From: Candidatus Woesebacteria bacterium
GTDB lineage: Bacteria > Patescibacteriota > Microgenomatia > UBA1400 > UBA1396
NCBI GenBank assembly: GCA_021208605.1
Contig: JAJOJK010000008.1
Coordinates: 1-36,833, forward strand
Direction: 5' to 3'
Length of the DNA stretch: 36,833 nucleotides
Part shown: positions 3,934 to 11,068 of the stretch, piece after piece
Layout of the letters: each line of letters begins with the position of its first letter
Position numbering within the stretch: the first letter of the stretch is position 1
The notes under the pieces: model-generated
Seen by the model: the letters and a program-made list of their open reading frames with translations, nothing else
Told to the model about the DNA's origin: nothing
Databases searched by the model: none
Translations under genes and position numbers: made by a program

Positions 3934-4017
3934 AAGGTTACCTTTCAATTTAATTACCTCAAGAAGGGGAGACTTAAGGTAACCTTTCTTGAGGTGGTTA
4001 TCAATTAGGGTAACCTT
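3934..4017. promoter_or_regulatory. Three 11-bp palindromic sites (AAGGTWACCTT type), candidate operators
   Basis: AAGGTTACCTT 3934-3944, AAGGTAACCTT 3976-3986, AGGGTAACCTT 4007-4017, upstream of the HTH promoter. Confidence 0.55.
3957..3994 (+). repeat. 38-bp hairpin element copy 1
   Basis: CCTCAAGAAGGGGAGACTTAAGGTAACCTTTCTTGAGG; same length and 30/38 identical to the copy at 14652-14689. Confidence 0.65.
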
Positions 4018-4034
4018 CGAAAGCAAAAGGGTAC

Positions 4035-4058
4035 AAAAAAGGCCGCAACCGCGGCCTT
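4035..4058 (-). terminator. Rho-independent terminator of rplL
   Basis: Minus strand AAGGCCGCGGTTGCGGCCTTTTTT. Confidence 0.85.
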
Positions 4059-4479: not shown

Positions 4480-4494
4480 GTTTTCTCCTTATTT

Positions 4495-4547
4495 ATCCAA
4501 AAGGACCATCTTTCAACGTGTAACCCGCAGGGAAGGATGGTCCTTTT
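4495..4547 (-). promoter_or_regulatory. Conserved hairpin upstream of rplL (candidate cis-regulatory RNA motif, copy 1)
   Basis: RNA sense: AAAAGGACCAUC-CUUCCCUGCGGGUUACACGUUGAAA-GAUGGUCCUUUU. 12-bp perfect stem; loop shared with 10953-11006. Confidence 0.7.
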
Positions 4548-4626
4548 CCGTATTGGGTGTGTTGAAATATTTTCTTTTGAATTGTTTTCTTTTATCTCCT
4601 GTTAGGATTCTTTTTTATTTGCTGAT

Positions 4627-10286: not shown

Positions 10287-10949
10287 TTACAACTTACTCA
10301 CCTGCAAGAAATCCAGTTCCACTGGCGTCTCGCGACCAAAGATGGAGACCAGGACGGTAACTTTGCCTTTGTCTTCGTCGATGCTGTCGACGGTGCCGAT
10401 AAAGTCGTTGAAAGGACCATCCACGATGCGGACAGCTTCGCCAACAGTGAAGTTTGCCTTGTAGGTGGTCACGCCCTGAGACATGAATTTCTTAATCGCT
10501 TCAACTTCGTGCTTTGGAAGTGGAGAAGGCTGGTTGCCAACGCCCACAAATCCGGTCACACCTTGGGTGGTGCGGACACAGAGCCAAGCTTCGTCGGTGA
10601 GGTTCATGCGAACCATAATGTAGCCTGGGAAGATCTTTTCGCGAACTTGTTGCTTGTTGCCGCGACGAATTTGGATTTTTTCTTGGGTAGGAATTAAGAC
10701 TTCGTAGATTTCGCCGGTCAAGTTCATGGTTTCGGCACGTTGCTTGAGGGTTTCGGCAATACGATTTTCGTGGCCAGAGTAGGTATGCAAAACGTACCAC
10801 TTGGCTTTGCGTTGCTTGGCTGGATCATCGCTGATGTCGCCAATAATGACGTGGCTCGGATTGGACTGTGTAACTTCTTGCACCTCTGGAGGAGTGACCT
10901 CGTCTTGGGTGTCATTCACGGTTATATTTTGTTTTGCGTTGTCTGCCAT
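10287..10949 (-). CDS. nusG: Transcription termination/antitermination factor NusG
   Basis: KWYVLHTYSGHENRIAETLKQR..EVLIPTQEKIQIRRGNKQQVREKIFPGYIMVRM..GVTGFVGVGNQPSPL..VRIVDGPFNDFIGTVDSIDEDKGKVTVLVSIFGRETPVELDF. Confidence 0.96.
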   Translation of the reverse strand: MADNAKQNITVNDTQDEVTPPEVQEVTQSNPSHVIIGDISDDPAKQRKAKWYVLHTYSGHENRIAETLKQRAETMNLTGEIYEVLIPTQEKIQIRRGNKQQVREKIFPGYIMVRMNLTDEAWLCVRTTQGVTGFVGVGNQPSPLPKHEVEAIKKFMSQGVTTYKANFTVGEAVRIVDGPFNDFIGTVDSIDEDKGKVTVLVSIFGRETPVELDFLQVSKL

Positions 10950-10952
10950 ATA

Positions 10953-11006
10953 TATCCAAAAGGTCTGTCTTTCAACGTGTAACCCATCGGGAAGGACAGT
11001 CCTTTT
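10953..11006 (-). promoter_or_regulatory. Conserved hairpin upstream of nusG (candidate cis-regulatory RNA motif, copy 2)
   Basis: RNA sense: AAAAGGACUGUC-CUUCCCGAUGGGUUACACGUUGAAA-GACAGACCUUUU; same loop as 4495-4547, stem with compensatory changes; stem ends 8 nt before the start codon. Confidence 0.7.
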
Positions 11007-11068
11007 CCCGCCTGGGTTTGTTTGTTGTGAGTTCCTTTTCCTCTATATTTTCGTTTTTTTCTCAGTTT

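Follow-up and report, generated by a model that had tools for sequence, protein, structure and literature searches.

Bacterial ribosomal proteins are usually controlled operon by operon, each operon by its own protein. At the level of initiation, the Escherichia coli rpsA start region works efficiently without a linear Shine–Dalgarno (SD) sequence and contains hairpins; it is an isolated example, linked to S1 and AU-rich loops, with no motif common to several genes. Described ribosomal protein leaders include the L10(L12)4 leader of rplJL (PMC4538822) and 20 further candidates, in a report that mentions neither nusG nor Parcubacteria (PMC7247131). Split ribosome-binding sites are established for T4 genes 25 and 38, in which RNA structure in the SD–AUG interval assists initiation and shortens the SD–AUG distance from 27 to 11 nt (gene 25) and from 22 to 5 nt (gene 38) (PMC3014915). 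Ribosomal protein leaders and structure-dependent ribosome-binding sites are both known.

Here we analyze a hairpin from a probable member of Patescibacteria, a group with few cultured members and largely unknown regulation, starting from a 36,833-nt stretch of DNA (the window). As in the described leaders, a structured RNA lies in ribosomal protein mRNA leaders, where it is likely to serve feedback or coordinated control; known leaders, however, normally pair one operon with its own protein, whereas here one motif precedes eight genes. Identity with the L10 (rplJL) leader was rejected: that element precedes rplJ, whereas the present hairpin lies in the rplJ–rplL gap, upstream of rplL rather than of rplJ, and has no Rfam match. 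As far as tested in the open-access literature, one motif for eight translation genes of different operons, without an Rfam match, is new; it would amount to a common switch.

Hairpin copies in the genome

The initial annotation placed a structured motif at 4,495–4,547, before rplL, and a second copy before nusG. The rplL copy is present, although its stem ends lie at 4,499 and 4,547, on the minus strand (4499..4547). Its arms, AAAAGGACCAUC and GAUGGUCCUUUU, form a perfect 12-bp pairing around an inner UUC:GAA and the apical sequence CC-UGC-GGGUUACACGUU; the element scores 78–86 bits and folds at −22.8 kcal/mol (z = −3.35). The nusG copy (10958..11006, minus strand) is of similar length (48–49 nt each), and the reported loop identity was reproduced: 22 positions of the 25-nt apical sequence agree, and the loop pattern is expected 0 times in shuffled sequence. 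The nusG stem carries an A-A mismatch, and with upstream sequence included its minimum-energy fold is a different structure. Pfam agrees with the gene identities, rplL (ribosomal protein L7/L12; 4081..4479, minus strand) and nusG (10287..10949, minus strand).

Covariance models built from four and then six sequences were searched against the organism's own 1.08-Mb genome, in which contig C13 (2544 bases) consists of N throughout and lay outside the search. The four-sequence model returned nine matches, which the six-sequence model repeated. One of these, at C8:2821, is an ordinary terminator with a U6 tail and was excluded; the other eight precede rplL, nusG, rpsJ, rpsE, rpsC, fusA, glyS, and dnaJ (products checked by Pfam). 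Copies before further ribosomal genes, whose absence the initial annotation had named as refuting its proposal, are thus present in this genome, and the regulon is wider than the ribosomal and transcription genes first proposed, with fusA, glyS, and dnaJ among its members. Six copies score 75–81 bits, dnaJ 39.8, and rpsC 29. Six copies keep the apical sequence CC-NNN-GGGUUWCRC; the dnaJ copy has the same arms with a different loop, and the rpsC copy is degenerate, so that its main hairpin hardly forms. A hairpin scan without loop constraint found no additional family member in this genome.

Each of the eight copies has the sense orientation and precedes a start codon, and none lies elsewhere in the 1.08 Mb. 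The stem ends 8 nt before the ATG in nusG, rpsJ, rpsC, and fusA, 10 nt in rpsE, 11 in dnaJ, 18 in glyS, and 19 in rplL. Translation genes account for seven of the eight (P about 1e-7 to 2e-6, assuming 80–130 such genes among 1116 ORFs). Most copies occupy intergenic gaps inside operons—rplJ–rplL, rplV–rpsC, rplR–rpsE, and dnaK–dnaJ—as would suit an element for mRNA processing or stability between cotranscribed genes, for example a target of a double-strand RNase or a shield for the message 3′ of it, and rplL is required at a higher dose than its neighbors. We consider this reading improbable: it leaves unexplained the fixed 8–11 nt spacing to AUG in six copies and the SD halves described below, and rpsJ seems to open its transcription unit.

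The initial annotation had proposed a translational or attenuation switch. Attenuation, in which the hairpin plus UUUU would terminate transcription unless an antiterminator formed, could draw on the GC core and U run, on the existence of alternative folds, and on T-box-like sequence upstream of glyS. It is nonetheless very improbable. Every copy reads CCUUUU followed by RG, against about six U in terminators of this genome (such as the rplL terminator at 4039–4058 and C8:2821); the stem runs up against the start codon; and the T-box-like leader of glyS already has its own terminator upstream. An intrinsic terminator was likewise rejected, no copy having a long U run directly after a GC stem. 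The anatomy suggests an element of the ribosome-binding site.

Covariation, distribution, and palindromes

Pairing in the arms covaries across copies, in line with the stem compensation first noted between rplL and nusG. In the six-copy alignment, both partners have changed in six pairs (2.0 in shuffles), and none of 500 shuffles reaches six; the fusA change from UUC:GAA to UGC:GCA is one of them. The arms of a copy also pair better with each other than with those of other genes (P = 0.002). The proposed CCC/GGG mini-helix is less secure: as a CC(UNCG)GG inner fold it may form in all copies, but its six bases never vary. The alternative 3-bp NNG:CNN inner helix is supported by four copies but cannot form in fusA or glyS, and was dropped as a family feature. 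All evidence is computational and drawn from paralogues within a single genome, so that conservation through recent descent cannot be told apart from selection with the help of orthologues; on that evidence, the hairpin is a selected structured RNA, common to rplL and nusG, whose arms vary with compensation.

Searches elsewhere gave no true homologue in 53 relatives (no other member of the organism's own family being among those listed), 88 genomes of the order, 374 of the class, and 380 of the phylum (overlapping sets, with ∼800 genomes across order, class, and phylum), nor in viral contigs or 25 S10-region loci of other phyla. Equivalent hairpins before nusG, rpsC, and rpsJ were absent in 29 same-order genomes each. 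One covariance-model match, in genome G590, was assigned neither to the hairpin family nor to palindromes; matches in G008, G020, G532, and G725 are plain palindromes rather than homologues. The assignment to Patescibacteria follows the initial annotation; the size of the genome is consistent with it, as are its best L3 relatives (Microgenomates, Woesebacteria, and WWE3). The hairpin is hence no widespread Patescibacteria family, and the lack of homologues in the other genomes searched implies that it arose in this lineage. Judged from sequence, the family is a lineage-specific regulon of translation genes.

Rfam bears out the initial view that no known leader family is involved. Rfam 15 returned only a tRNA in the window, chance-level matches for the rplL element under permissive filters, and nothing at the gathering threshold for the other copies; a Phe_leader match (30.5 of 55 bits) lies elsewhere in its locus.

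A mobile palindrome, REP- or MITE-like, that landed before these genes by chance is already disfavored, and we regard it as quite improbable. Genome G532, of the same phylum, has dispersed palindromes with very similar arms (AAAAGGACAGUCCUU...AAGGACUGUCCUUUU), and the organism's own genome has Y1 transposase genes and a separate GGTTACC palindrome family. The present eight copies, however, all read in the sense direction upstream of start codons; seven belong to translation genes, free copies are absent, and the arms are compensated rather than identical. A REP-type palindrome was rejected on the same footing, many dispersed copies in both orientations not being found.

Several repeats were observed alongside. 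Clustered AAGGTTACCTT / AAGGTAACC palindromes with a REP-like look form a second repeat family, at window positions 3934–4020 and at C15:23569–23620, C15:24147–24228, C4:69375–69456, and C4:136286–136368; it neighbors the rplL terminator and the rpsJ leader. In the distant genome G532, perfect palindromes AAAAGGACAGTCCTTCAGCGCGTTAAAGGACTGTCCTTTT at C5:55703 and C5:79773 (L149 and L152) have arms like those of the hairpin family and are not tied to start codons. A Y1 transposase-like gene lies in the rRNA region of the organism's own genome (C4:113358–113696, minus strand), with the 16S 3′ end about 1 kb upstream of it.

Shine–Dalgarno anatomy around the hairpins

The 16S tail reads CCUCCUUUCU, and most neighboring ribosomal genes carry a linear SD such as UAAGGA. 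Within a list of translation genes, a linear SD is present in 20 of 24 without the hairpin vs. 2 of 8 with it (Fisher P = 0.005). The two are rplL and glyS, each with its own SD after the hairpin (AAGGAG and AAAGGA); that of rplL (4485..4490, minus strand), 3′ of the hairpin, pairs with the 16S anti-SD at −8.2 kcal/mol. The remaining six—rpsJ, rpsE, rpsC, nusG, fusA, and dnaJ—have no SD at a normal linear distance from the start codon. Genome-wide, a linear SD is found in 261 of 971 genes (about 27%); since most genes do without one, these six could initiate without any SD. The arrangement resembles E. coli rpsA in having hairpins in the initiation region and no linear SD.

Each of the six SD-less genes has a predicted stem with an SD half immediately 5′ of it and RGRU immediately 3′. 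For rpsJ, rpsE, fusA, and dnaJ, UAAGG directly precedes the 5′ arm and AGRU directly follows the 3′ arm. The rplL and glyS copies read UACGG and UAAUG where others read UAAGG; the rplL 5′ flank (4548..4555, minus strand), CAAUACGG, has lost the half-SD where other copies have the SD-like half UAUAAGG. The nusG and rpsC copies have no UAAGG at the inner arm. The nusG 3′ flank, GGAUAUAU (10950..10957, minus strand), spans the 8 nt from stem to AUG, contains no linear SD, and is the proposed 3′ half-SD. Farther upstream, Box 1 (AGGAAAAGGA; 11033..11042, minus strand) is a second copy of the 5′ arm, at −93 in nusG and −94 in fusA, rpsJ, and rpsC; in nusG it follows UAUAG, and it could serve the CCUUUU strand as another 5′ arm (conformation B). 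Predicted minimum-energy folds of nusG and rpsC use this arm, with AGAGG or UAAGG before it. Gene specificity of the upstream:loop helix in conformation B is weak (P = 0.04 and 0.11). Around the Box 1 region, nusG and fusA have a longer upstream stretch, GAAAATATAGAGGAAAAGGAA, in common.

Joining the flanks across the stem strengthens anti-SD pairing in the six genes from between −0.4 and −3.8 kcal/mol to between −5.1 and −12.7 kcal/mol, and the SD so formed is predicted to lie 8–11 nt from AUG. Random joins reach −8 kcal/mol in 2.5% of cases and −5 in 12%; rpsE and dnaJ attain only −5.1 kcal/mol, which 12% of random joins match. These energies do not amount to an independent test, since the pattern was recognized only on looking at the flanks and the motif that located Box 1 already contained GG.

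Proposed split ribosome-binding sites and rival regulatory readings

We tentatively favor, at somewhat under even chances, cis-acting hairpins inside ribosome-binding sites, with a split SD in six genes and one trans-acting factor controlling all. In the six SD-less genes the hairpin would be the spacer of a split site, with the SD half (UAAGG or GAGG) abutting the 5′ stem base and RGRU-N4-7-AUG the 3′ base. Folding would assemble the SD at normal distance from AUG, and unfolding would remove it. For rpsJ, rpsE, fusA, and dnaJ, the folded leader would read UAAGG-AGAU...AUG, an ordinary ribosome-binding site; for nusG and rpsC, the Box 1 arm would make the join in conformation B. Because rplL and glyS carry the hairpin and need no split SD, the shared loop must serve something besides SD assembly, most simply the binding of a putative common factor. 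The conserved loop suggests a candidate trans-acting ligand; binding of one such factor to the apical sequence would control folding and switch translation of the whole gene set together.

As in T4 genes 25 and 38, an SD far from AUG would be brought to working distance by RNA structure. Unlike the T4 cases, six chromosomal genes belonging to a single pathway would share the predicted arrangement, the inserted element measures about 48 nt and has a conserved apical sequence, and several copies are predicted to have the SD itself cut in two by the stem. If the split-SD reading is true, RNA folding would be required for initiation of cellular core genes, a requirement reported so far from a few phage genes.

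The main competitor inverts the sign: a ribosomal or other protein would bind the apical sequence and stabilize the hairpin, and the stem, ending 8–11 nt from AUG, would block the 30S, so that the folded state is OFF. This is the classical design of ribosomal protein leaders, and it fits a loop conserved while arms vary freely with compensation, stem ends within the usual 30S footprint in six genes, and targets from one pathway. Yet six of the genes have no linear SD to hide; the rplL and glyS stems end 18–19 nt before AUG, 5′ of the SD, and would hardly block; it would be unusual for one ribosomal protein to govern eight transcription units, fusA, glyS, and dnaJ among them; and the element matches the organism's own rRNA in neither sense. 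We hold such a repressor operator to be rather unlikely, and folding is accordingly graded as a plausible ON signal under the split-SD reading and a less likely OFF signal under this one. In either direction, the hairpin is predicted to control ribosome loading and probably does so on these mRNAs. The full proposal—that a single hairpin family coordinates EF-G, NusG, S10, S5, S3, L7/L12, GlyRS, and DnaJ in a Patescibacteria lineage, with folding assembling the split SD and one loop ligand switching all eight—is more doubtful still.

Other readings of the conserved sequence were dropped. A leader peptide has a candidate frame (KGxSFPxGYTLK..), but five of the eight copies lack an in-frame start and three shift frame. 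rRNA mimicry found no match in the organism's own rRNA region, and loop pairing with 16S helix 23, prompted by the rpsE copy, was no better for the set than for shuffled loops. A promoter reading (TTGAAA...TATATATG) fails in glyS, which has no TATA, and in fusA, which reads CTGCAG.

Two leaders hold further elements. Upstream of rpsJ, TTGGCA-N17-TATAAT (C15:23520–23560, minus strand; read by eye) comes close to the sigma-70 promoter consensus; transcription from it would begin the rpsJ leader about 110 nt 5′ of the ATG. Directly 5′ of the glyS hairpin copy (L015:1459–1522, minus strand) lies a T-box-like 3′ part, GGGUGGAACCGCG plus a terminator, which scores 18.2 bits against the Rfam T-box cut-off of 93 and matches positions 161–216 only; glyS would carry two leader elements in tandem, T-box-like and hairpin.
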